From: Morchella semilibera
Taxonomy: Eukaryota; Ascomycota; Pezizomycetes; Pezizales; Morchellaceae
Reading direction: 5' to 3'
DNA length: 64,000 nt
Assembly: GCA_009192285.1 (NCBI GenBank)
Contig: WBVU01000011.1
Span: 864,668 to 928,667, forward strand
Below, piece after piece: positions 22,606-61,892 of this stretch. The first letter of the stretch is position 1. Each line of letters starts with the position of its first letter. Under the pieces are notes generated by a model. That model saw nothing but the letters and a program-made list of their open reading frames with translations. It was not told where the DNA came from and made no database searches. The position numbers and the translations under genes are program-made.

Positions 22606-23594
22606 TGAGTGTGATGTTTACTTTTTAAGGACAAGCATTGTATAGTAGCCTATAGTTATCGTGGTTAAATGTTTTGATCTTAATATAAAAGCCGAAAACC
22701 ATTCCGATAATGACTTTACATAGAATAAATCACACTATATATTCAAAGAGTTCACACAGCTGCATGCATGTATCAAGTATAAATAAATAAACAAAGAGTT
22801 CACATAGGCATTCAAACTTCCGGCAATCCAAGTGATAACAGGATTTCGGGATATTTCCTAGATATACTTGTAGTTGCCTACAGTACCGGATGAATTAATC
22901 GGTTGTTGTTCTGATAACTGTATTGTCTCATAAGAAGAAATATTGCAGAATATTTCATACAAATAGTACATGTACATTTTTTCGGTTAGGTACAGGCCGG
23001 AAGTGACCCGGAAATGCAGAGCATTACTGGAAAGTATTGTGGTAAATACATATTTGATTTCTCTCAATACCGTAGTACCTATAATACTGCAGAACTCAGT
23101 TTCTGCGGCACCCCCTTTTTTGGTACTGCACATAATATTGTAAGCACTTTCTAGTTGCACAGGAGGGGGCAGTACCATACTTACATATGTATTTGGGTAC
23201 ATTTGATTTGAGATTTGACTAATGTTCATTTTAGTTTTGAAGGCTAACTGCTCTAAACGACTCCAAAAACTCGCGAGCATATGCATATGCCTTAGTACAT
23301 ATAAACTGGGATATTCTTATGAGTACTATTGTACGGGGGTAGCTTATGGTTGCGCAGATGGAAATAAGCCATGGGCAAATAAGATATGGTAATTTGACTA
23401 TGGTCACCGTGCAAAGGTATCAATGACTATTTGCTATATAATCCAACGGTCTACTACTACCACTGTGGACCAGGTACTACATGTACGGAGACCCCGGCCG
23501 GCGCTGTGTAACGTGGTGGTAACATGGTTGTCAACACCTTTCTTCTAGAGCCTCACAGCTCTAAACAACAACAATATCTCCTCGCACCTCCGCC
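22606..23594. other. Intergenic region between two plus-strand genes
   Basis: About 990 bp, AT-rich. It probably holds the VPS53 3' UTR and the promoter of the next gene. TACATGTA occurs near 22970 and 23480. The 142-codon minus-strand frame at 22858-23286 has no family-like features. Confidence 0.5.
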
Positions 23595-46043: not shown

Positions 46044-47345
46044 TCACCTGATTCTCATAGATGATGTATCAATACCATTTACGCGATGTCTCCTGTTAAT
46101 TCTCTGCTCGTTGATCAGCGACATTGTTGGAGTTGGGTGAGGACTGCGCGTACATCGTCGTTTCCGGGTGATGCTATGGTGCAAAATATTGGTTGTGGTT
46201 CCTGTTCTTCGCCCTTTCCCGCTTTCATTAATATCTGATACATCATCATCAATATCTGATGCAGATATGGTGGAGTCACGGGAGTGATGCCGTCTTTTAC
46301 TTCTGGAGGTGGAAGAGGAGGTGAAGGCAACAGGGCTCATTAGGGTTCGGTGGGTAGAGGGGTGTGTGGAATTTAGAGCAATGGGTTTTTTAAGCTTTGG
46401 TTGAGGCGTGGTTGCTCTTCCTGCGTCAACAGATGTATCCTCGTCTAATTCGTGGGATAAAACCTGCGATGCAAGGAACCGTAGCGCCTCTAATCCATCA
46501 TCTTCGGTCGTGCCTCTTCCTACCACACCATCCACTCGTCTCGCTAGACCATTCCTTTCTGGTATATTGGTAGAGTTATGTATCTCATCCCCATCCCCAC
46601 CTCCACCCCCGTCCCTACCACTGACAGTAACATGACGATCTTCAGGCGAACGCGATGCGTCTAGCTGATGCTGCCGATTATCGCGAATCCTTTTCTTTAG
46701 CCTTTCATTTTCATCTTTGGAATCCACCAATTCATCGCGGTACTCTCTGAGAGACCTCTTTGCCTTCCGTAGCCTACGCTTATATGCCTCATTCTCCTCC
46801 GCGAGTGCGAGCTGTTGGGTTGTACTGAATGAGCTTTGGTCTAATCGCAAGACCTCAACTTCCCGGCGTGTGATTTCGGATTCAACTTGGTGTCGCGCTG
46901 CAGCCTCCGTAGTTTCCATCTCGAGAATTTTATGTTGGAGGAGATAATGTGCAGAATTTGTACGCAATGCAATGATGGAAGATGAGAGGGCTTTGATATG
47001 CTGGTTCGCAAGTTTAAGCTTTTCTCGCAGCGTTGTCAGGTCATATGAATCAATTACGGATGCAGAAAGATCTTCCCAACCCTCTATTGAAGGACTGTGA
47101 GGTTGCGTAGCTAGTGATATAGCAGAGGTAGGATCTATAGGTGTAGGCATGGTGGAGACGGAAGTGGAAGACGAAGGCGCGAAAGACTGTGCACTCGTGG
47201 AGGCGAAGGATGGCGGGGGGATAAGGCGAATTATAGGGCGACCCCTATCCTGGTGTGCAGAAGGTGTCATCTGTGATGATAGTGGGGAGGAAGGGGTGGG
47301 AGTCTCCAGGACAATGGACTGCTGGGAGTCCTCTTGTGAAGGCAT
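46044..47345 (-). CDS. Coiled-coil hypothetical protein, 433 aa
   Basis: A single uninterrupted reading frame. The N-terminal 85 residues are Ser/Pro/Thr-rich and disordered. Residues about 100-220 form a heptad-rich coiled coil starting LTTLREKLKLANQHIKALSS and containing ITRREVEVLRLDQ and YKRRLRKAKRSLREYRDEL. The C-terminal half is low-complexity and basic, with SRSKRRHHSRDS and RKRRCTRSP clusters that could be nuclear-localisation signals. I do not recognise the family. The coiled-coil segment looks constrained, the rest does not. Start ATG 47345 is the first in frame. Confidence 0.75.
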   Translation of the reverse strand: MPSQEDSQQSIVLETPTPSSPLSSQMTPSAHQDRGRPIIRLIPPPSFASTSAQSFAPSSSTSVSTMPTPIDPTSAISLATQPHSPSIEGWEDLSASVIDSYDLTTLREKLKLANQHIKALSSSIIALRTNSAHYLLQHKILEMETTEAAARHQVESEITRREVEVLRLDQSSFSTTQQLALAEENEAYKRRLRKAKRSLREYRDELVDSKDENERLKKRIRDNRQHQLDASRSPEDRHVTVSGRDGGGGGDGDEIHNSTNIPERNGLARRVDGVVGRGTTEDDGLEALRFLASQVLSHELDEDTSVDAGRATTPQPKLKKPIALNSTHPSTHRTLMSPVAFTSSSTSRSKRRHHSRDSTISASDIDDDVSDINESGKGRRTGTTTNILHHSITRKRRCTRSPHPTPTMSLINEQRINRRHRVNGIDTSSMRIR

Positions 47346-47942
47346 TGATATCAGAGATGGCGAAAGCCCTACCCGCCGTGACGTCAGTGATAGGGTGAGC
47401 GGTATTAAGTGGAAATGATAGAAGCTCCGCCTTTTTATCTGTAGGTAAAGTGGGTCGAGTAAGGTAGATGGCGCCTAAGCTTTATCGGACTATGATGTGG
47501 GAAGCTGCGGGTTGTAAACAGACAGCATGGATGGAAGGAGAGGGAGACAATATGATTGTTTCCCCGCATATCAAAACCTAGAGGTTCCATGATAAACCAC
47601 CATACACTCCATCTCACAAAGATTCTGGACTGAACTGGATCTGCATACTACCAGAATCCGGTTGATGTGGACGATTCTTGGCCACATGCAGTCCGGAAAT
47701 GCTGTGAGTACTACTGTGCGGGTGCATGTCAAGCCACATCTTCTGCAGCCACATTCATTATTATGGCCACTTAGACGAGCTCTTATAAAAAGAAGTAGAG
47801 TACCTCGACCTCCTAAAAATAAGATTGAAAATTAACAGGTTTATTACCGAGATCTCTCAATTTCCGTTTTCGTGGTCAGGTCTCTAATATCAAAAGGACC
47901 TAGACTACATGTACATAAGGACATTCTACTCTAGGTAAAGTA
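47346..47942. other. Promoter side of the coiled-coil gene, left flank of the transposon
   Basis: About 600 bp between the coiled-coil gene start and the left end of the transposon. TACATGTA occurs near 47907. Together with 56732-57221 this would have been a shared divergent promoter region of about 1.1 kb before the insertion. Confidence 0.5.
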
Positions 47943-47962
47943 CAATACCAAAAAGGGGGTAT
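47943..47962 (+). repeat. Left terminal inverted repeat
   Basis: It begins CAATACCAAAAAGGGGG and matches the complement of 56712-56731 with a single difference (G versus T at position 13). Similarity falls off sharply after 20 bp. Confidence 0.85.
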
Positions 47963-48179
47963 GGGTTAGTACGGTTGGGCAACTGTAGTACTATAGATTT
48001 TATTGAAAGACCGTAGTCTGACAAGTGCCGCATCATTTCGGCATTCTCGGGAAAATATTTTGTGAAGACTATTGTATTTAAGCGAGAATGCGTTTTGTGA
48101 TGACAACTGTATTTAAACCAAATGTGGCTGTGGTTTGGTAGCGCTATTTAATTTGTTAGAAAGCGCTTTGACCTAAACC

Positions 48180-48620
48180 GGGTAGCACTAGTGTAGCGAG
48201 GTCGCAGTGCGGCAAAACAAATAGTTAAGCAAGTGCTGTAGCAATACCGTTGCGATGCTACATCTTGACAAATGCGCACCATCTTGGCGACCGTAGCACA
48301 GTGGCAGTACAACGCTTTTTACCAAAAATAATTCTCTGGCAGAACACCGCACCACTAGTGTAGCACCGCTATTTTTCGTGTATTGCGCACTATTATCAAT
48401 ATGCTATCGCTCTGGCATCCCTACCAGGTTTGGCGAAATATTTTTTTTCCCTAAACGATGTACTGCTACTGCTGCGACCTGGTTTTCCCCTACGTGCGCA
48501 TTCTCGCTGAATTTATTTTACTCCGGTACTGCGACCTGGTTTTTCAGAATATATTTTCTTTCTAATACTGTAGCAATACTGTTTTTCCATAGGTGCGTAT
48601 TGTTTACTTCACTGTATTGC
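48180..48620. repeat. Left subterminal repeats of the transposon
   Basis: Recurrent short motifs. GCACTAGTGTAGC occurs at about 48186 and CACTAGTGTAGCACC at about 48353. CTGCGACCTGGTTTT occurs at about 48473 and 48531, and TGCGCATTCTCGC-like repeats lie nearby. CACTA-group transposases bind such subterminal arrays, which is the likely role here. The 196-codon plus frame across this region (48378-48968) is made of these repeats and is not called. Confidence 0.6.
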
Positions 48621-49036
48621 TCTGGTATCTCTCGATCAAGGTTTTTTATTAATATTATTTTATTTCTTTTCGTCATAAAACTAAGACTGACACCGCAAAG
48701 AAGACAACCCTCAAAAACGATTTACATGCAAAAACCCGCAAGAGTTATTAAAAGTCTCATATATAACGGACACTCGCACCTATACCCAGAAATCGGCGCG
48801 AAATTAGTATGCTGGATGGAAACTGAGACTTACAGGTATTCTATTTTTCGGAGGAGTCTGATCAGAAAAGAAAAGGATGTTAGTTGGGCGATAGGTACAA
48901 ATAGGCGAAATGGATGGGGATTTACCATTAGGTGCAATGAAAACGCGTGGAACTGTCAAAACACGTGAAAACTTAGCGTGATGATCATGATAGAGAACAG
49001 GAAGGAGAATACAGAGAGATACGAATGGTATTGTAT

Positions 49037-49182
49037 ATACCTGAAGCGCGTCGTGTAAACGAAAGATCACTAGGAAAAACCGTACATTAGCGAAAACTTT
49101 GATCAAGGATGGATATAAGATACCTGAAGCGCGTCGTGTAAGCGAAAGATCACTATAGGAAAAACATTAGCGAAAACTTGGA
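49037..49182. repeat. Two-copy direct repeat, 83-bp period
   Basis: About 63 bp containing CTGAAGCGCGTCGTGTAA, CGAAAGATCACTA and ATTAGCGAAAACTT is present at 49037-49101 and again at 49120-49182 with small differences. It lies downstream of the minus-strand accessory gene in the transposon, so it may be a duplicated 3' or subterminal element. Confidence 0.7.
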
Positions 49183-49557
49183 TTCTTAGATGTAAAGAGC
49201 TGATACTACATGTAGGGGTGAGGTATGGTATTAAGCGAAGGATAGGAAGATAGGAGGCGAAGAGGTGAGGTATTTGATGCATGTGTGCTTTGTGGCCTTG
49301 GCGTGCTTGGCAATAATATAATTGGCCGCTCCTGCCAAGATCATATTGGATCACTCGATTTAGCCCTCTTATTTGTGGTTAAGTGCTTGTGGTGTTTATA
49401 GAACATGCACTACCGCCATTACTCGAAAAATTAGCTGCATATGAGATCAAAGTTGCTATAAGCAGACCTGATCTACGCCCTTCAACCAATCGTGATCCCT
49501 GGCCGGAGATAGCCAACTACAATTACACCTTTCGATACATTTTTTGTTCTGCCAATA

Positions 49558-49558
<1 letters not shown>

Positions 49559-49592
<34 letters not shown>
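49559..49592. repeat. Poly-T run
   Basis: About 32 consecutive T on the plus strand (A on minus), inside the transposon and downstream of the minus-strand accessory gene. On the minus strand it could be a fossil poly(A), but no other retro-element sign is present. Confidence 0.8.
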
Positions 49593-49596
<4 letters not shown>

Positions 49597-49878
49597 ATAC
49601 ATGTAATTGATACTTCTAGGTACAGGATTGGTATTTGTATCGCGCGTGCAGTTATATATAGACGAATATTCGCGTAAACGGTGCTTGGATACATTTAATT
49701 CTAGTACTGTTGCTCGGAAAGAAAAAACACTTTTGCGTTAAAGTGCTATGGAACCCATCGTGTAAAACATTAGAGAAAAACATGATTTTAAAATCAGACA
49801 TTATGAGATAAAAAATGAAGACAAGAACTCTCTTTTATGAAATGAAAAATAGGAAACAAATACGCCGTTAAATACCGT

Positions 49879-51569
49879 TTACTCATGGTCTGAAGCCTCT
49901 TGTGATGATGTAACCGAAATGTGACCACCAGGCAATTGTGTTTCCATTATGGAGTCTGGGAAGCGCTCCTCATCTTCATCCTCATCAAATGGCGTGGGGT
50001 CATCGCCTATAGTAGGTGGTGGTATGGGCGCACGGGGTGCAGGAGGTGGGGACGCGCCCCTAGGTGCACTTGCGGGTGCATCTGCGTTTCTAGGTGCAGC
50101 TGCGGCTGCTCTTTCTCGGCGCCTTGATCTGGACTCTGCTGTCGCTGTTGGCGTCGCCGCTGATGCGGCTGCCGCTTCGTCGCTCAATTCAATATCGTCT
50201 TCGAATGCAACGAAATTGGGGTCGAGGGCTTCAATGTTTGTTGGTCTGTCTCGCTTACTGGCTCTAACTTTGGTCTGGGGCTTCTGGGGGAGGAGGACGA
50301 GGACATCGGTGGTGAATCTTTCGTAAACCTTGTATCGTCCAATACATCGCATCCGATCCCTCCCTTCTGCTTTGCTGAGTATGTTGGGCCAGTGACGATA
50401 CATATGGCTATATCTATATTTGTAATTAGTTTATCCTATCTGTATGTGAACGAGTGATGAACTCACATGAGACTGTATGACCATATTGTCTTGAAAAGAC
50501 TTCTGGCCCCTGAATCATCGAGCACTTTGGCCCAATTCACAATCGCCGTTGTTGTCCCCATTACTCGATACAGCAATTGGTACTTGAAAAGCCTACTGTA
50601 CGCCTCACGAAGATCCGCCTCTTGGAGACGTGCCAAGCCCACGTTATCTTGCTCTAGTTCGGCCTGGAGTTTATCGATCTCGTTGGCGTAATTGAAGAAC
50701 CAATTCTTGCGCCATTCTTGCACACGGCTGTAGGCCTTCTTGTACTCAGATGAAAAACGGTCTGCCTTTTTCCCCATCGCTGTATCGATGAAGCCGGGGA
50801 TGGCAGAATCAGGCCAACTAAGGTAGCGTGCAAATTCCAACCGGCATATAAATATAAGAGCGTTCCATGTTTTTCCCCCGTCAGCGAAGTCCCCGCTCAT
50901 TTGCGAGCTGTCATACTGCCGTTTCCTACGGCGGCTGTATAGCGCCTCGTCCACAAGATCAAAAATTTCCTGTGGGGTCATACTAACGGGGACCTTGACT
51001 GTCAAATCGAACGGGCGTTCTTCTTCTTCGTCATATTCGTCCGCTAGTACATCCTCTGTTGCCCTAGTACGGCGTTCGATTGGTTGGCGGTCGCGATCCC
51101 TAGCATTTGAACGCAACAAAGAGGAAAACTCTGTGCCGTTGCCAAAATCATCGAAGACATCGTTGTCATCTACTTGAGCACGGCTTGATCGTCCCTGATC
51201 CCGATCACGGTCACGGCGGTCCGGTCTTGGTGATCGGTGCCGGCGGTCTGGTGCTGGTGAAGACCGACGCTCATGATCCCTTGAAGATTGAGGTTCTCTC
51301 CGGCGCTCCTGGGAACTTTGCGGGTTTGGTGCAGCCAAACGCCTTTCAGCAGCTCTTCCTTGCCCTTGTGACTCTTGTGATCTACCCAATGTACCCTGTG
51401 AATAATCGAACGTATCCGGCGGATCATTAGAAACTGGGAAGATGGTACGTCGTGGGGTAGGAGTATCGGGGGAAAATGCATTGCTTGCCTGTGTAGGGTT
51501 ACGATTAGTCCTTGGGGTAGCAATAGGGCGCCTGCCAGGCGTCGCTCTAGGGGGGTTAGATTGGCTCAT
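49879..51569 (-). CDS. Transposon accessory protein A, unknown, 543 aa
   Basis: Exons 50467-51569 and 49879-50407 give 543 residues; the 59-bp intron (GTGAGT..AACTAAT..ATAG) splits an Ile codon. The N-terminal 170 residues are disordered and rich in Arg, Ser, Asp and Gln with RDRDRDQ-type runs. Residues about 195-395 look folded and helical: PFDLTVKVPVSMTPQEIFDL, TWNALIFICRLEFARYLSW, and a charged helix VQEWRKNWFFNYANEIDKLQ. The C-terminus is Ala/Pro-rich and acidic. I do not recognise it. It is transcribed away from the transposase, an arrangement consistent with a DNA-binding or assembly factor like the second protein of CACTA elements, but that is inference. An in-frame ATG 69 bp upstream (51638) is possible. 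Confidence 0.75.
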
Positions 51570-51873
51570 GATAAAGGGGGGCGTTGAGGGGATGATCTGA
51601 GAGAAAAGAGAGGCTGAATGTTTACATGTGGCGATCATTCATGCAGGGGTTATTCACGTCACGTGAGGTAATCGCGTCGCCGCGACACCACACCCCCCCC
51701 CCAAAAAAAGGAAAAAAAAAAGTACGCGTTTGAGATCGTTTAATCTACATGTAGTCGGTGAAGGAGGTAAAGATTTATCGCAAAAGGTAAAAAGACACAT
51801 AGAGCTACGGTTATGTTCAGTCGACTGCCTTTCTAATTATTGTGAGCTATTGTGGTATCGTGGTTAACATGAG

Positions 51874-51964
51874 TTGCCGTTACATCATGATTTATCTGCC
51901 CTCCCATGAGTTACAAATCGATTGCCGTTACATCATGATTTATCTGCCCTCCCATGAGTTACAA
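51874..51964. repeat. Perfect 43-bp tandem duplication
   Basis: The 43-bp sequence starting TTGCCGTTACATCATGA is present at 51874-51916 and 51922-51964 with a 5-bp spacer. The second copy includes the stop codon of the small minus-strand gene at 51959-52372, so the duplication affects its 3' UTR. The two copies are identical, so the event is recent. Confidence 0.9.
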
Positions 51965-52372
51965 GTTGACAACTTCGACGATACTCCATTCAAGGAATCC
52001 CTTCCAGCAATCTTCTCCTTGCCATTTGAACCATTCAGCTTCCTTGACTACTCCTACAAGCTTCTTCCCGTTATTAAGAAGCTCCAACATCTCTTTGTTG
52101 TCGTAAGTTCTGACCCAGCCAGCGACACACTCGTGCGAGACAAGTTGAACACCAATGACGGAGTGCTTGAGGGTGGTATTGGTTCCATAGGCGGACTTCA
52201 ACCAATACCATTGATTGATGATAGGCTGAGTTCCGTTGGGTAGGTCCCCGCCGACGTCTGATAAGCGAGTATAATTGTCAGCTCACGTGTACATACAGGC
52301 AATGAACTGGGGGGCCTCACAGATAAAATCGGCTCTGACCGCTACATTGTTGCCCGCTGCAGTGTCTGTCAT
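51959..52372 (-). CDS. Transposon accessory protein B, small unknown, 124 aa
   Basis: Exons 52297-52372 and 51959-52257 give 124 residues. The 39-bp intron has GTATGT, GCTGAC and TTATCAG, all canonical, and joining it extends the frame without a stop. The product starts MTDTAAGNNVAVRADFICEA and contains NGTQPIINQWYWLKSAYGTN, VIGVQLVSHECVAGWVRTYD and FKWQGEDCWKGFLEW. It is rich in Trp (six), has four Cys, and lacks low-complexity sequence, a signal peptide or a membrane segment. I do not recognise a family. It lies between the two longer transposon genes, which leaves it inside the mobile unit. The opposite-strand frame at 51842-52243 is judged to be its shadow plus the tandem repeat. Confidence 0.6.
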
Positions 52373-52595
52373 GACTGAAGAGATGTCGGCGCGATGTAAA
52401 TTGTTCTCGATATGAATTGTAGAGTGACGGAGATGATGGGGTTGGTGAGTGATGGGTGATGGAGGTGATGGAGAAGCTCCTGGGGTGCAAGGTAGCTGCG
52501 GGTCCCAAAGTGGTTAGTAAGCGCAGTATCATACAGCATCTTTTACATGCATCCACCTCAACTTTCCACAAAATCATTCTATCATCAGTAGAAAT

Positions 52596-55500
52596 ATGAA
52601 GAGACGAGGACTCCCACCAATCCCAACGCAAAAAAGGCATAATTTCCGGCGCGCAGCTTCCACTTGTATGTAACCTTGACGTTCTTGATACTAAAAACTC
52701 ATCAATTGACTGATCTCGTAGTAAATAATAACACAATCCATGGTCCCAACATACCGATTAACTGGGACGAACATGCGGAAACGATTGAGCAAATAGATGA
52801 AGAGGCAGCGGCTGTCGAAGAAGACATAGCGCCCAGCGACGAAATTGATGACAACCTGCCCCGCCAACGGGCGGTCAATCTGCTCGGAGTTGAGTATGGA
52901 GAAGATGAGACTGTAGAAGGAGAGGAGGAGATATTGGGGGGTGATGCTACTGCAAATACATCATACAAGGAGAATGAGACCATCGGTGGCGACCTCTTGG
53001 ACGATTACGAAATAGAGGGAGATACAGCGCTAGACGAAGTAGCTAAGACGGGAATGAGCCTACCAGCCGATGAAGAGGAAAACACGGATCATTTACCGAT
53101 GGATTTGTCGATAATGGCAGAGGCTGGCGATGATGATGTTTCTGTCGATGAAGTCGTCGCGGATGGACCTTCAGAGAAAACCACACAGATCGACGATTTC
53201 CATCTAGCCTTAATGATATATGTGACTGCAGCGGACCTATCAACAACCATGTATGAAGCCCTTACAGAAGTATTGGCATTAGCAACAACAGACAGTATCA
53301 AGAGGCTTCCTAAGAGTTTGAAAACACTGAAAGAACGCTGTCGCCAAACGTTTCCTGTTTCGCCGGTCAAAGCCCGCCCTGTTGAAATCAGTCTTACCGT
53401 AGCACCTCCCAAGTCGTCGTCGCCACGTCTAGCGTACTATTTCGACATCTCCCACTATTGTAAACTCTGGCTGAGCAATCCACGTATAAGATCACGATTA
53501 CATACAGGTCTTGGAGAGATTGTTGAAGCTCCGACTGAACTTTGGCACGGAGATGCTTGGATGGAGAGCGTGAGAACGACCTCGGGGGAGTTCGCTCGGA
53601 TAAAAGAAGGCGCAACGGAGGTAGTGATATTGCCGTCGGATTGTGTCGAATTCGTTGATGCACAAGGAAATGTAGCAATGGGGCGCGTGAAGGCTATTGG
53701 CATCGATCGGCGTGATAAGAGATACGAAAAAGGGGTGATATCGGCCGTCATCAATCGGCTAGTTCCAGTCGAAAATCTACCTGCACACATTAAAGACGCC
53801 ATACCAACTCCGCCCACAGAAGAAATAGATCGACTCATGCACAATACATTCGATTCGAACCTTCCTGAGCTTGTCTTGTTCGAGTCACGGGAGGTGGTCC
53901 CATGCTCGGCGATATGTTGCAGACTATGGGTTTATCTCACAGATTACGAGACACCTATATCACTTGAAAATAGTCTTCTGCCATACCCACCAACATTCTG
54001 TGTCCGGCATATTGTATACCAGGGCCTTGCAACTAGCCAAGAGCAACCCAGAGCTCGTGTTAGACCCATCACTAAGCGGCATAAGATTATCGCTGAAACA
54101 GAGCTTATACAATTATCGCGCAGCGCGGTATTGTCTAAGTTAGTGTCGAAGAGTGAGGTTCGCGCAGGTTAGTTCGATGATATAGAGGATAGGGAATGGG
54201 TGGGTTTACTGACACTACGAGAATATAGACTCCATGAACATAGTAAATAAAACTGTGTCCGTACCTTTCTCCGTTTTCCTCGACGGATTTGGTCTGTATA
54301 GAAACGCATATAAGTCTCTCAAAGGAATGTACGTGACGCCAGCTGGCATGGATGTTGATAGTCGTTCACACCTTTCGAATATGTTTGTATTGATGATTGG
54401 ACCATTCGGGGCAACGGAGTTATCGATGGCCTCTTGCCTGGCAGAAGATAGTAAGAAAATGGGGATTGGTCAAGAGATAACCCTATTCACCGGAGAGACC
54501 TTAAACGTGATTGCCTTCCCTTTGGTCTTTACCGGGGATATGCCACAACAGAATATGAATTCTGGTAATAAGGCTCACAACGCGGTGTATGGATGCCGTT
54601 CCTGCTTCGTCGCTGATACCGACAGAGGCGATTTGTACCTGGATATATTATCTACCGGGAGATACGATGGACCCACTCGGAGACTTCGCGACTACATGGA
54701 TAGCCTGAATAGTAAGCACGCAAGGTCTGCGGCACAACAGAGGTACGGACTTACGGCAGAGGGACCCTATTTTGCAAAATGCTATACGATGCTCGATCCG
54801 CAGAGATCAAATCCAAACGACCCTCTTCACGCGGAGCTACGTCTATGTAAATACTACGCGGAAGTGTTGATAGATGGTATCCTATCTCCGACAGGGACAT
54901 CAATGTACCAGAAAGAATGGAGCAACGTGAACGTACCGTTTAAATGGGGACAACCACAGAATCCAGTAACCCACAAGGGCTCTATGGTCTTTAGTGAGCA
55001 CGGCCGAATGGCGATCATGAATCCTTTTGTCTTGCTGCGTATGTTCTCTCGTCCAGCGGCACAAGGGAAAGCATACATAAGATCAGGGAGTGAGGCGCGA
55101 CTGAATGCGTCATTCAATGGTGATGGGTTGTGTCCGGCGCGAGAGGTTCAAATGCAAATACTCCGGACCGCCTTCACTCTTGCTAAAACGGTACACCTAG
55201 CACTCAAGCGATCGCTGAATCAGCGAGAGAGATATGAGTTTACGATGGCACTGAAGGAGGTGAGTCATGAGAATACCAGGTTCTCTGTTAGATGCTAACC
55301 GAAACCAAACGACAGATGCGGATGATGCTAAGGAAGTTCTTCGCGGGAAGTGCGACGTCGAAAGGCGCAGGTCATCAGAGATATGCAAACGTACCAAATA
55401 TCCACCTAGCTCTACATTATCGACAAGATATCGAGAATTTCGCTACCGCCTACAATGCCACGACGATGATGGGGGAGCAAAAACATAAAATCTTCAAACA

Positions 55501-56233
55501 GCACGCCCAGCACACGAATTCGAAAGAGAATGATTTACAGCTTCTCAAGTCGGTAAACACTTCACAAACGATACGTTTCATGCTCGACGGCACATTTGAT
55601 ACATATGCATGCCAACAACTGAAGCGTATTATCAGTCTATGCCCCAAAGTTAGGACACGTTACCTAGGGCACAAAGAAGAAGATCCTATCAGTACAGAAT
55701 CTGAGTTTAATCTTAATGGGAGTCTCCTGCGCTCCGGCAAAACAGGTTGCGGTATACCAAACAGCTCGGTTAGTCAATCAGAGAAAGCCTTTGATCTTGA
55801 ACATATATCGAAGTTATACAAAGAGGAAGAGGGGGTGACCATTGTGAAGCAAATGCGAGCCAGAATTCACTACTGGGGTTACTTTACAGGGGAATCAATA
55901 AAGAAGACGAGAGAGTACGATGGCCAGCATGTCTATCACATCAAGCCAGGGGGATTCGCCCGGTTGAGAGAAGACCCCGTCTCATTCTATCAAGTAAAGA
56001 GGATACTTACCGTAACAATCGGTACATACGTGAAGATATATTTCGTGCTAACTGCACTGAAGCGGGATACATCACTAGAGATAGAGGCTGCGCCGTATCC
56101 GGTCTTCACTGACCCAGGAGAAAGGCCGTCATTGATAGTGAATATACAAAGGATAGATCCGGTAGTTTTTCACTTTGTGGATAGAGCTAACGACTCGTGG
56201 TGGTTCAATCCATACGTGCCTTATTTTCTATAA
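52596..56233 (+). CDS. Tnp2/Plavaka-like DDE transposase, 1,154 aa, intact
   Basis: Exons 52596-52665, 52722-54167, 54229-55259 and 55316-56233 give 1,154 residues without a break. The introns (56, 61, 56 bp) are GT..AG with CTGAC/CTAAC branch sites. The first exon codes a basic leader MKRRGLPPIPTQKRHNFRRA; residues about 35-190 are acidic. The catalytic core starts at about 510. VSVPFSVFLDGFGLYRN gives a likely first Asp (D524) and VFTGDMPQQNMNSGNKAHN the second (D609), followed by CRSC (628-631). GEQKHKIFK near residue 903 gives the probable final Glu (E903). Leu/His-rich NIHLALHYRQDIENFA precedes it. These features match fungal Tnp2-type transposases I remember; exact superfamily and catalytic residues are inferred. 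Confidence 0.85.
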
Positions 56234-56404
56234 TTTTATATGTATGATAAAGATCGGCATGTAAATAATAATAAATCTCTGAAAGTACTATATTTTGTGA
56301 AGTACTGTTTCCGTGGGAATCTGGTATTGGTACAGGGTTTGGAAAAATAAATTTTTTCAAAAATACCTTATTGTGGGAGGGACGGGATTCGTGGCAATAC
56401 CGTA

Positions 56405-56700
56405 GCAATACTATAGTGTGCAGAATGCCGCTTGTCTCAAATATGATAGGGCTACTGGTTTTGCCGAATTATCGGATGGCTACGCTAGCGATAGGATATT
56501 AGCGGCAATAAGGCAGCACTAGTGTATTGACCGGGTAATTTAACCGATCCGCATTGACCATAAAGTGCGCTGTTGCCACAATGCAGCACTAGTACCGTAT
56601 TTAATTCACTACGCATTTCCCGCAAACTTTATTAGAAAGAATGCCGCACTCTTAGAAACACCGTACTAGTATCGGAGTCTACACAATAATATATCACTAC
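56405..56700. repeat. Right subterminal repeats of the transposon
   Basis: GCAGCACTAGTGTA (about 56515), GCAGCACTAGTACCG (about 56583) and CCGTACTAGTATCGG (about 56662) echo the CACTAGTG motifs of the left end, together with GCAATACCGTAGCAATACT-like units. No coding sequence. Confidence 0.6.
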
Positions 56701-56711
56701 GGTTGTATCCG

Positions 56712-56731
56712 ATACCCCATTTTTGGTATTG
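56712..56731 (-). repeat. Right terminal inverted repeat
   Basis: ATACCCCATTTTTGGTATTG; its complement matches 47943-47962 with one mismatch. TA follows at 56732-56733. Confidence 0.85.
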
Positions 56732-57221
56732 TAGTAGTACAAATATCGAATCCCAACCAGCTTCTAATCTTTAATTTCTGTAGGTGGGAATATGAACTTA
56801 CGGATGAGATATGCCATTTGCTATCCCTCAGATACCACCGCCACGCAGTGGAAATAGGTGTATAAGTAGGATTGTAAAGCTATTGGTGTATACATATAGC
56901 TACAAGGCTCTTCAGGAGGGAAACGCAGTACCTGCATGGATATCAATTGAACCGTCGCACTAGCCCACGCTTTGACCTGCTTCTGCCTCTGCTACCACGG
57001 TAACTCCCGCCCCCCTATCAACTTTCAAATTTGACTGTGTACCAAGCCTTTCCCAGGTATCCTAAAGACCCTGCATTCCCTGCATGCCCTGCATGCTGCG
57101 GGTTTTTAAACCTTTGGTATTTCACGTTTCATATCCCCTGACTCGAGAAGAGCTCTTCAAAACCCGGCTTCAATTTAGTTAAAGAACGACTATAGCTGCG
57201 GCTGCGACTATCACAATCATC
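56732..57221. promoter_or_regulatory. Promoter of the LRR gene, right flank of the transposon
   Basis: About 490 bp between the transposon's right end and the LRR gene start. It contains a TGCATGCCCTGCATGC palindromic repeat near 57083 and pyrimidine-rich stretches. No gene. Confidence 0.5.
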
Positions 57222-60200
57222 ATGGAAGACTTTAGCGATGCTAATATTGATAGCCCTACCATCGATACTGTCGATAGCAGTACTGTTGATGGTAGTGCTT
57301 TTGGTAGTAGTGCTCCTTCGAGTGTTCAGGGAGAATCACGCGAGCATTCTCCTCCGCCTACTGTTGCTCATATCTCCTACAATAATCCTCCTATTACACA
57401 GGGTCCGATTCAACTTAAAAGAAGGGTATCATCTAGGCTTCCGGTGCCCAAGAAGTTCTCTACTCCTGCACCAGCTACAATAAACGTGCCAGCTCCTTAT
57501 GGTGGTTTGAGATCGCCTTCGTTAAGGGAATCTTTTGTTTCCCCTGGTCCAAAATCTGCTTCTCCAAGACTCCCTTCAGTTGCTAAAAGGCAGTCAAGAA
57601 TTGGCGGCCCCAGCTATAATGGCGGCGGACGTAAGAGCTCCAGAGCCCCCCCTATTGCTATTTTGTTTCAAAACACCCTCAACTGACATTGAATAGTTTC
57701 TTCCCCAATTGAATCTCCATCAATAATGCCCTCAGGCCTCAAGAGCCCTCGGGTGATAGAGAACAACGCCAGGGGAGACCATACATCGCACACTGCCACA
57801 TCACTTGCCAAAAGGGCGTCAGTTCCGTCCTTGACGGGGAAGCCTCCCCCTTCCTCATTGACCAGGAAGGTTTCAGCTTCTCAGCTCCAAACTCCAGTTT
57901 CGACACCCCCTCGAAAGACTTCAACTTCGGGGCCAACTATAGTGGCTCCGCCACTTACGCGGAAGCCTTCGAATTCTTCAATGGTAGTGAATAAGAGAGC
58001 ATCAAACTCCCACCTGAACCGCAAGGTTTCAGTATCCAATCTTCCCAGTCATGATCCGGCGTCTCAAAGCCCAACTCCAATGCGCCGAAGTATCTCCTCA
58101 GGTCTCCCGTCTCCAATGATCTCAACCAAACTACCGCCACGCCCAACCCAAAGTGGACTCCGTCAGCCATCTCTCAAGGGTCCGCGCCCAGCGCCGGCAA
58201 AACCACGAACCAAGTCTCCAGAGCCGGAGCGTACAGAAACGCCAGACTCACCCATGTCACGAAAAGCAGCTGCAAATAAAGCCTCGCAATCTCTTCGTGA
58301 CACTATAGCTAAAGCCCGGGCTGCACACCGTGCGCGTGCCGAATCAATTGCCCAATCGATTTCTGGTTCAGTTGCAGGATCTATCAACGACGGTTTAGAT
58401 GGGTTCAACTTTTGTACAGATGATCCATTCAACCAGGCTATGTTTGGTATAAGTAGTTCTCAAAAATCAATAAAACAGCGAACCAGGACCGCTCGAGTAG
58501 AGGGGCGCCTCAATATATCTAATTTGCAGCTGAAGGAAATACCCGCAGAAGTATACAAAATGTATGAGACATCTGCAGAGGACCTAGAGGCTGCAGATGC
58601 AGGCGATGGTCCCAAGTGGTATGAGAGTGTAGACCTGGTTCGCTTCGTTGGCGCGGACAATGAGATCGAAGAGATTAGTCATGAGTTGGTGGAACAGTTT
58701 GGAGGACTGACTAGCATTGATGTACAGCAAATCCTTCCTCTTCACTCTAGCTGTAAAATTTTGCTGACATGGTAGTTTTAGATGCATAACAATATGTTGA
58801 TCGCATTGCCAAAGAACTTTGGAGAGTTAACTGAACTAACAGTTCTTAACCTGGTATGTGGAAAGGCAAAACACATCTGCATGCGGTCTCTTTACTAACA
58901 TTTGGTTAAAGACAAATAATAAGCTAGATTATGATGCCCTAGAAACCATCTTCCAGATCAGAACGCTGGTAGACTTGAAATTTGCAAAGAATGGGCTTGA
59001 AGGAGAGTTGCCCTCATCAATCTCTAAACTTGAGAATCTAGAAATTCTAGAACTCCAGGAAAATAAGCTGGATTCCCTTCCCTCGTCAATTGGGGGGCTT
59101 TCTAGATTACATGTTCTCAATGTTCATGCAAACCGCTTGCAAGAGATCCCACTGGAGATCCTTAAAGGTTGTCAGCTACAGGAGTTGACAGCCTCCGCCA
59201 ATAAGTTAAGGGGTACTCTATTTTCGTCGGAAGTTGAGAGTCTTGACTCTCTCCATTTGCTCGATGTTAGGAACAACCGTATTTCACAATTCAGTGAAGG
59301 CACTGTTCTTCTACCCACTCTACAGCAGCTGTATGCTACCAACAACGAACTATCCTCGTTTCCTTCTGTTGAAGGTTGGAACGAACTTTTGGTTTTTACT
59401 GTAGATTCAAACCGCTTGGAAAGCCTTCCTGAGGGATTACTTAATCTCCATAGGCTGAGAACCCTCGACTTTTCAATGAATAGTATCAAGGCTTTAGACC
59501 CCCATCTCGGGATAATGGAGGGATTGGAGATCCTCAAATTCGATGGAAATCCATTGCGGGAAAGAACTCTTCTAAACATGGGAATTGCGGATTTGAAGCG
59601 AACCCTGAAAGCCCGGCTAGCACCGCCTGAAATTGTTATCGCAGAGGCTGATGATGATACCGTTCAATCCTCGGACATCCCGGGATTTGTAGACGCTGAA
59701 AGTGCCGAGGAAGATGGGGCAGCGCATAAACAGATACTGGAAATTGGCAGGAGTGGAATTTTGGATCTAGCTTCCAAAAACTACGAGGAGATTTCCATGG
59801 AGCTGTTAGAGACTGTTGTTGGAAGCCCCAGCAGTATTGTACTCATCCACAACAAGCTCACCACCATCCCAGCTAGTATAGAGACGTTTTGCGCGTCGCT
59901 GACAATTATCGACATAAGCCACAACAAGCTCTCCGGCGATGCGTATCTGCCTACCAGAATCTCACTTCGGTCACTTACAACACTCACCTTGCAATCGAAC
60001 GGGATCACGTCCCTCAAGCCATTGCTCGACAACCTCGACGCACCCAAACTAGAGTCTCTTGACGTATCGGTCAACCGGATTGAGTCGATCGAGAGCATCA
60101 GGCCAACTTTCCCTCACTTGACAGCATTCCACGCAAGGGATAATCGGATCGAAGAGATCCCAGTTGATTCTGTAGACGGAATCAAGATCCTGGATTTGAA

Positions 60201-60417: not shown

Positions 60418-61892
60418 ATTTCTTCCTTCCTTCTTTCTTTTTCTTTTCCCTCTTTCATTACGTTCTGCTTGACAAATTGCCCTTTGGCAATCTATATTCT
60501 CCCGCCCCCCTTCTTCTTCTTCTGCCCCTTTCAATCTCAAGACTGAATTATTTAGTAGACATAAAGCTACCCATGCAGTAGACTTTTCCTTATACCATTG
60601 TTGGAGATACATGTATATATGTGCCCCATAAAGCAAGTTAGTAGTTAGAAAACGTAAGTATGTAGTATGTAGCATGTATTAATGTAGTTGATAATCAATA
60701 ATGATACTAAGTGAGAGATTACCTCTAGAGGAGCAGTCAGCCGTACGCGTGCATATATGTATATACGAACCCTACAGCACATACAAGCAGCCCCCCTCCA
60801 CCCATCACCACCACCACCACCAACATCTCCTCAGACTGGAGGACCACAATTAACACAGCCTCCAAACTCCAATCCGGAAGTGTGTACGTGTGGGTAAAGG
60901 GCCGGTTCGGGATAGATACTAACATATGCACTTAAATAATAAAGTACATAATTCTGAGACAATCAGTCGAACGAAACCTTTGGCGGATACACATGTACTC
61001 TAGACCTGAGTACTAATGTAGATGTACCCTATTTCGGGGCCCATGGGTACTACGTACGTACAGCGTCGATACCTGTTCCGCCACCAACATACGGTACCAC
61101 CCGCCGCTGCACGGTGCGTGGGGTGGAAAACTCTTCGGTAGATATGTAGTAGCTTAAAGGTGTTGTGGTTGCACTACTGGTTTCGGGATACTTTAATGTA
61201 TAGACTACATGTATACTGCGCGCCATCTAGTAGGGGAATCACATCAACCTCATCTATACTTATGTACATACATCTATACACAAGTGCATTGTCCAGTACC
61301 AAAAAAGTGTACATGTATCCAGCCGGTCGATATAGTGGCTGAAAGTATCGATTTTCTTTTGTGGTGCTGTATATTGTATCATGTACCTGCGTGCGATCTG
61401 AGATCCTGTGTGCATTGGTTCCTCATGCATTAACGTTGTGCGTACATTGTACTGTACCCCAAATATTTAAACTGGGACTGGGAGTGTCTTGAGTTTCTGA
61501 TCTGGTGTGTGCTATGCTTTCCTGTCTCGAGCTGGTTGCGTGTGATATAATTGTGATTAATACGATGTGTAGGTGCATGTAGTTGAACCTAGCCCACCGC
61601 ATCAACCAGATGTTACTCTACCAGCACCCAGATTCAGATTCACCTATAAACAATCCAACTGTAAATAATCTAGCTGCCTATCAGAGAAGGCCAAAGGTTC
61701 AAACACCCGGGGCTGGGGTGTAATACCCACTCGGATGCATGTATTAGTAGGTTAGATCATGGGCCATCACTCGCTCAGCTCATGACCTAGGAATCGATAT
61801 TCAACAACTACTGAGCGTATAACCTATTTTATTTTATTTATCTACATGTAGCTACATGTAGATATCCCCCATTACCACGTCCAAGAAACCCC
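60418..61892. other. Convergent intergenic region
   Basis: About 1.5 kb between convergent genes. TACATGTA lies near 60609, 61208, 61312, 61844 and 61853. A GGTTCAAACAC sequence near 61696 resembles a tRNA B box but no cloverleaf forms around it. No gene is supported. Confidence 0.5.

Follow-up and report, generated by a model that had tools for sequence, protein, structure and literature searches.

The subject of this report is a DNA transposon of 8,789 bp that occupies positions 47943-56731 of a 64,000-nucleotide stretch (the window) on contig C9 of the Morchella semilibera genome. The element is probably a cut-and-paste transposon of the CMCT clade, autonomous in appearance, that represents its own lineage beside Plavaka and EnSpm/CACTA and encodes a DDE transposase that resembles RAG1 and Transib and includes a BAH-like domain. 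The combination of a RAG1-like core with a BAH-like fold is supported by structure modelling, and the transposase gene is accompanied by two divergent accessory genes, here called the long and the short gene. An earlier note on this stretch had proposed a potentially autonomous transposon with terminal inverted repeats (TIRs) from the broad CACTA-like group, and this general assignment is upheld.

The catalytic signature D-D-CxxC-HxxxH-E is present in the transposase (D519, D604, C623/C626, H874/H878 and E898). According to PMC12730594, a paper from 2025, the CMCT clade is marked by the residues D, D and E, a C(2)C and an H(3-4)H motif lying between the second D and the E, and its members mostly have 5'-CA..TG-3' termini and target sites of 2-5 bp. 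Both this motif signature and termini of the corresponding kind (CAATACC..GGTATTG, with TA outside both ends) are found in the element; ends of this type read CAATACC/CAGTACC. The D, D and C motifs occur in all 17 homologues, the nearest named of which are from Morchella snyderi, and the H and E motifs occur in 9 of the 17, the predicted sequences of the other eight ending or diverging ahead of the H/E region. The transposase itself matches no Pfam family at E<=10, neither PF18759 (Plavaka) nor PF02992 (Transposase_21), and a search of its homologues against NCBIfam gave nothing credible (best E 0.025). PF18759 is touched by four of the 17 homologues, at best with 19 bits vs a cut-off of 26.3, and by none of the other 13; its second half is matched by three of ten homologues scanned singly (E 0.00087, 0.005 and 0.096). 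Across the genome (56.8 Mb in 23 contigs), 128 matches to PF18759 and 25 to PF02992 were found, and by eye none among the matches listed overlaps the element's lineage. Bona fide Plavaka elements are abundant in this genome (exon pieces are counted apart in the 128 matches; examples lie at C1:1933470, C2:1745358 and C7:827157), and five places with equal score and one internal TAG suggest a recent Plavaka amplification.

The named families were each considered for the element. Plavaka termini are given in PMC12730594 as TGT..ACA (PlavakaA) and CATCA..TGATG (PlavakaB); the termini CAATACC/CAGTACC fit neither sublineage and the PF18759 cut-off is not reached, so that Plavaka is not supported as the family and the earlier name "Tnp2/Plavaka-like" is abandoned. 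The element does resemble Plavaka in its D-D-CxxC-HxxxH-E signature, in ends of the CA..TG type seen in PlavakaB, in 2-bp target sites and in its weak similarity to the second half of PF18759, but none of the 17 homologues attains the Pfam cut-off, and the lineage has other termini, carries a BAH-like insert in the model and is found at separate loci. EnSpm/CACTA (Tnp2), for which the same paper gives CAC..GTG ends and 3-bp target sites, is likewise not supported, on the basis of CAATA/CAGTA ends, a TA target and the lack of a PF02992 match, and the long gene was found within 16 kb of 0 of the 25 PF02992 matches; the two groups nevertheless share the clade signature, and the short accessory gene accompanies both in this genome, being transcribed divergently from the CACTA-type transposase at 10 of 11 loci. 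Nothing supports KDZ, the other family that had been suggested for checking, as the target is TA only, vs 7 bp in Kyakuja and 8 bp in Zisupton according to PMC12730594. ESTA elements (EnSpm-like, with TA target sites, from rusts), as described in PMC12730594, share with the element the TA target, a RAG1-like transposase (modelled here on a homologue) and the CMCT signature. However, the three ESTA families described in that paper carry a TET/JBP gene, and none is present among the three genes of the element, the comparison being one by description only. In terms of the family check that had been proposed, the transposase does not belong to an unrelated family, but neither is it a profile-positive Plavaka.

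The structural evidence comes from a model built for the Morchella homologue P0002, to which the window protein was aligned in order to assign its positions. In a Foldseek search the model resembles RAG1 in the arrangement of its core, and a BAH-like fold (window residues ~288-483), of a type that binds chromatin, separates its N-terminal helices from the RNase H catalytic core. The fold matches of P0002 include an Orc1 BAH-nucleosome structure and the BAH domain of Sir3. Based on the model, a BAH-like domain in this position looks new; within a limited set of papers that mention BAH together with transposases, no pointer to such a protein was met, and passages of PMC3599309 and PMC4352252 report none. 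Residues ~1090-1180 of P0002 form a beta-rich C-terminal part that is barely covered by the fold search. RAG1, Transib and ProtoRAG (BbRAGL) have target sites of 5 bp. The element is like them in the modelled core arrangement and in D-D-E with CxxC and HxxxH, and unlike them in its ~10% identity, its low TM-scores and its TA target. In the RAG recombinase, chromatin is contacted through the PHD finger of RAG2, a protein separate from RAG1; in contrast, the putative chromatin-contact domain of the element lies within the transposase and not in a partner protein.

The three genes, whose exon structures and splice sites are predictions from sequence, are free of internal stops: the transposase has four exons and 1149 aa on the + strand, and the long gene (543 aa) and the short gene (124 aa) have two exons each on the - strand. 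The earlier description of a four-exon transposase with two divergent genes, all in frame, thus agrees with the predicted splicing. A diverged full-length copy of the element at C5:519734-528554 (TAs included), whose matching DNA pieces are 66-82% identical, has counterparts of transposase introns 1 and 3 and of the long-gene intron at matching places. Transposase intron 2 is missing from the C5 copy, which has an uninterrupted frame of 858 codons there. For the short gene, exon 1 lacks clear conservation in that copy, the match spanning residues 27-124 only. When the window copy is compared with the C5 copy, synonymous sites prove saturated (proportion of synonymous differences, pS, 0.75-0.85), and nonsynonymous divergence (dN) is 0.19, 0.31 and 0.31 for the transposase, long and short genes, values that derive from translated matches including short intron stretches, with a small overlap for the long gene and residues 27-124 for the short gene. 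All three genes have therefore been retained as proteins and, judged from this comparison, are under purifying selection. The element shows no sign of decay through repeat-induced point mutation (RIP): its indices are slightly lower than those of the remaining window (TpA/ApT 0.82 vs 0.89; (CpA+TpG)/(ApC+GpT) 1.12 vs 1.15) and its CpG observed/expected ratio is higher (1.04 vs 0.79).

As previously noted, the TIRs of the element are 20 bp long with one mismatch (19 of 20 positions identical, with broader arms of 35 nt at 83%) and are flanked by TA at 47941-47942 and 56732-56733. The TIR pattern TACARTACCAAAAANNGGG, allowing <=1 mismatch, occurs 150 times in forward and 149 times in reverse orientation in the genome, and a backwards-read control occurs 0 + 0 times, so that the TIR core forms a genome-wide family of 299 places. 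Other copies with the same ends, which the earlier note had suggested seeking, do exist, among them the C5 copy, which shares the end core, is flanked by TA at either end and has a counterpart of each of the three genes. Among the first 100 of the 299 TIR matches the variant TACAGTACCAAAAAGAGGG predominates (for example C1:1007594 and C2:77437), suggesting a numerous non-autonomous family that shares the end type of the element.

Near-identical relatives at the different sites C1:5999113 and C21:2089429 are revealing of how the family moves. Their left 3.35 kb agree at 99.8%, identity starting three bases (AGC) before the TA, and their right 1.1 kb likewise at 99.8%, where identity stops at ...GCTG-TA in both; two intermediate stretches are 99.7% and 99.9% identical, and the outer flanks are unlike on both sides. 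Because identity is bounded by TA and the flanks differ, the ends and TA targets are real and the element moves as a TA-flanked unit. Another pair, C1:4250001 and C23:2377214, is 99.7% identical over 4 kb. Beside the C5 copy, a 2.75-kb stretch (C5:530856-533608) bounded on either side by this type of TIR is likely a non-autonomous element. At C1:4743515-4743576 there is a solitary 62-bp match to the left end together with 11 flanking bp, and no further part of the element was found in the surrounding 16.5 kb.

Subterminal repeat arrays, which had also been noted before, are borne out by counts of near-identical 11-mer pairs: both ends together contain 106, vs 14.5 +/- 6.5 in 60 shuffles (max 31), the left end alone 43 vs 4.6, and the right end alone 12 vs 3.5 (max 11). 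The diverged C5 copy has 66 vs 13.6 shuffled, and host intergenic DNA used as a control has 11 vs 10.1. The ends are also rich in the palindrome GTAGYRCTAC, a motif picked by eye after inspection of both copies, so that its fold-change is descriptive only. At <=2 mismatches there are 10 sites in the left 700 bp (14.3/kb; six at <=1) and seven in the right 501 bp (one at <=1); the density is ~14-16/kb in the four ends of the window and C5 copies, vs 0.9-1.3/kb inside the copies and 1.03/kb in the window outside the element. At <=1 mismatch the four ends hold 6, 1, 5 and 5 sites, the 7-kb interiors 0 and 2, and the 55 kb outside the element 3. CACTA elements carry subterminal repeats, and the element is like them in this respect. 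The two-fold symmetry of the motif suggests a dimeric binder, for which the long protein is a candidate by analogy with TnpA of En/Spm.

The company kept by the accessory genes distinguishes the two. Merging exon pieces and counting the C10 partners of two C9 loci once, 27 transposase matches reduce to 13 loci, leaving out more distant matches at C2:3133367, C4:2627236, C1:2780531 and C1:1150843 and two at C1:2774732-2775477; the first three represent a second, more distant transposase branch (34% identity) with copies ~99% identical to each other. Both partner genes lie within 15 kb at 10 of the 13 loci, the long gene only at two (C1:4076412 and C20:2894640, both with stops) and neither at one (C14:491788, with stops); at C1:3833171 and C19:2103987 the transposase match is separated from the short gene by 8 and 11 kb. 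In the accessory-gene counts that follow, C9/C10 and C21/C22 partners are counted twice. The long gene gave 18 matches, or 15 loci once fragments are removed (a pair at C10:1710 kb and a third at C19:2117241), and 14 of the 15 are within 16 kb of the element's transposase lineage and 0 near Transposase_21. The short gene gave 25 genome matches (weakest E 9.4e-4), of which 12 are within 12 kb of the element's lineage, 11 near Transposase_21 only and two near neither. Ten of these 11 are within 4 kb of the Transposase_21 match and one is at 9.3 kb, 10 of the 11 being divergent; the chance of a Transposase_21 match within 4 kb is ~0.004 per locus. From these sequence matches, a short gene common to two transposase lineages of one genome looks new.

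In the long protein, an N-terminal part of low complexity and rich in Arg precedes a conserved region in which WRKNW is invariant in 9 aligned sequences, and the short protein amounts to a conserved domain of ~95 aa. Profile searches of both families against Pfam and the PDB gave nothing credible, in line with the earlier suggestion that this gene content may be undescribed. No homologues of the long or short protein were found in a large protein set at E<=0.001 (619 and 2 candidates), a search that misses short or diverged proteins; the short domain does stand in the predicted Morchella snyderi protein P0006. There it sits at the front of a transposase and shares 72% identity across 46 residues with the C1:3824527 short protein; this joining may be either a product of gene prediction or real.

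A number of observations weigh against the interpretation advanced here. The P0002 model has a mean pLDDT (model confidence) of 60.7 from 17 sequences, and the Foldseek TM-scores are low (on the target, among the matches listed, 0.32-0.40 for RAG1 and 0.29-0.50 for BAH, with long chains of the DNMT1 type below the BAH range). The Pfam BAH profile (PF01426) matches none of the 17 homologues at E<=10, and the single sequence match to a BAH chain (7cce, E 0.58) is not significant. Folding the long protein's conserved region from a single sequence gave a poor model (pLDDT 46.5), and the functions proposed for the two accessory proteins are deduced from position and analogy. The short gene lies within 4 kb of 10 of the 25 Transposase_21 matches, with none there at the other 15. 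An internal stretch (48650-49250) has 45 near-identical pairs vs 4.1, which counts against purely terminal repeats; this excess probably stems from direct repeats at 49037-49155, and a second internal stretch has 7 vs 3.7. Finally, C9 and C10 hold identical versions of the window copy (100% identity over 23,400 bases compared), so that their comparison gives no sign of activity of that copy; its insertion is occupied in both contigs, no empty site was found for it, and in a genome search for an empty site of the C21 relative the 179-bp left flank matched only itself.

One alternative is that the element is a divergent Plavaka or ESTA element missed by a narrow Pfam model, with the BAH-like part an ordinary, unnoticed feature of the group. 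The PF18759 second-half matches in three of ten homologues, the four of 17 that touch this profile, and the TA targets and RAG1-like transposase of ESTA in PMC12730594 all lean this way. However, no homologue reaches the PF18759 cut-off, the Plavaka termini given in that paper are unlike those of the element, and the bona fide Plavaka of this genome, by eye and among the matches listed, are separate loci, which makes this alternative unlikely. It is similarly improbable that the window copy is an inactive relic of an old element, or a domesticated locus: although the copy is the same in C9 and C10, its TIRs carry one mismatch and its end sequences have no identical copy except in C10, all predicted frames are intact, there is no RIP signature, and the near-identical relatives point to recent movement in the family.

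The two remaining alternatives concern parts of the element. The BAH-like domain may be a DNA- or protein-interaction module, for example in end pairing, that makes no contact with chromatin. This is a real possibility, if a little short of an even chance, given that the methyl-lysine aromatic-cage positions are mostly non-aromatic in the homologues (by eye); yet BAH domains of Orc1 and Sir3 bind nucleosomes, and both proteins are represented among the fold matches. The short gene may have been swapped between transposon lineages and not inherited from a common ancestor with CACTA-type elements, as it is found near two transposase groups with non-overlapping genome matches (among those listed) and its orientation differs, being on the transposase strand at C1:3824527, C1:4247394 and C23:2380581. 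Such exchange is conceivable but rather doubtful: the short-gene grouping mostly follows transposase type, and on a tree of 16 short genes the transposase label needs two changes vs 5.5 when shuffled (1/500 as low), with one of 13 inner branches well supported and two loci that had a long gene only counted with the element's lineage.

Positions of the features of the transposon in the window
Feature	Position	Strand	Basis or content
Left target-site dinucleotide TA	47941..47942	.	Also at both ends of the C5 copy and the C1/C21 relatives
Left terminal inverted repeat	47943..47962	+	Inverted-repeat comparison and genome pattern search
Left subterminal repeat region, rich in palindrome GTAGYRCTAC	47963..48642	.	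Near-repeat and motif counts
Long gene exon 2 (with stop)	49879..50407	-	Gene prediction and C5 comparison
Long gene exon 1 (start at 51569)	50467..51569	-	Conserved WRKNW-containing region ~50469-51023
Short gene exon 2 (with stop), conserved domain	51959..52257	-	Gene prediction and homologue alignment
Short gene predicted exon 1 (start at 52372)	52297..52372	-	Prediction; C5 copy does not confirm
Transposase exon 1	52596..52665	+	Prediction, C5 comparison
Transposase exon 2	52722..54167	+	Acidic N-terminus, helical region, BAH-like ~53513-54100 (residues ~288-483)
Transposase exon 3	54244..55259	+	Catalytic D519 (54282-54284), D604 (54537-54539), CxxC 623/626
Transposase exon 4	55316..56233	+	HxxxH 874/878, catalytic E898 (55475-55477), beta-rich C-terminal part
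Right subterminal repeat region	56231..56711	.	Near-repeat and motif counts
Right terminal inverted repeat	56712..56731	-	Inverted-repeat comparison and genome pattern search
Right target-site dinucleotide TA	56732..56733	.	Read from the window sequence

Within the element there are also a 36-bp duplication with its copies 83 bp apart (49037-49155), a long T run (49560-49592) and a 48-bp tandem duplication (51874-51969) just past the 3' end of the short gene. The nearest neighbouring start codons, with neighbours judged by open frames only, stand at 47345 on the - strand (598 bp away) and at 57222 on the + strand (491 bp away), consistent with the 0.5-0.6 kb reported earlier. Elsewhere in the window, a lone TIR-like end, CAGTACCAAAAAAGGGGG, lies at 23104-23128 (- strand), and a partner sought within the window was not found. 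The TIR-like matches at 23117-23128 (-) and 61294-61305 (+) were rejected as extra copies, since no partner end was found for either; the 61294 stretch is single-copy in the genome except for C10. C9 (2,071,371 bp) and C10 (2,071,177 bp) have matching content, as if they were two versions of one chromosome, either two haplotypes or a duplicated assembly. C21/C22 also match, with two 3.3-kb stretches identical, and C12/C13 have similar match positions.

A mechanism can be sketched from these parts. The transposase would cut at the CA(A/G)TACC ends and join them to TA. TnpA of En/Spm binds subterminal sites and pairs the ends, and by analogy the long protein may bind the two-fold symmetric subterminal sites and pair the ends of the element. 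The BAH-like domain would then dock the complex on nucleosomes, thereby biasing target choice, and the short protein may serve as a general helper or regulator for two transposase lineages. Taken together, we tentatively propose, with a confidence just below even, a RAG1-like lineage in Pezizomycetes in which a chromatin-docking BAH domain in cis, the counterpart of the RAG2 PHD finger, steers insertion, and in which a small accessory module is shared with CACTA-type elements.

The recombinase of antibody genes descends from RAG1-like transposases. How enzymes of this kind locate permissive chromatin is under active study, and the histone-reading finger of RAG2 is the known vertebrate answer. 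A fungal relative of RAG1 with a built-in BAH-like domain would, if true, be an independent solution, and one in which chromatin-based target choice is directly testable. The shared short gene, in turn, lends itself to the study of how one accessory module can serve two transposase lineages within a genome. The element is best read as belonging to a variant RAG1-like lineage whose transposase probably has a domain for docking on chromatin built in, and whose short helper gene also accompanies CACTA-type elements.
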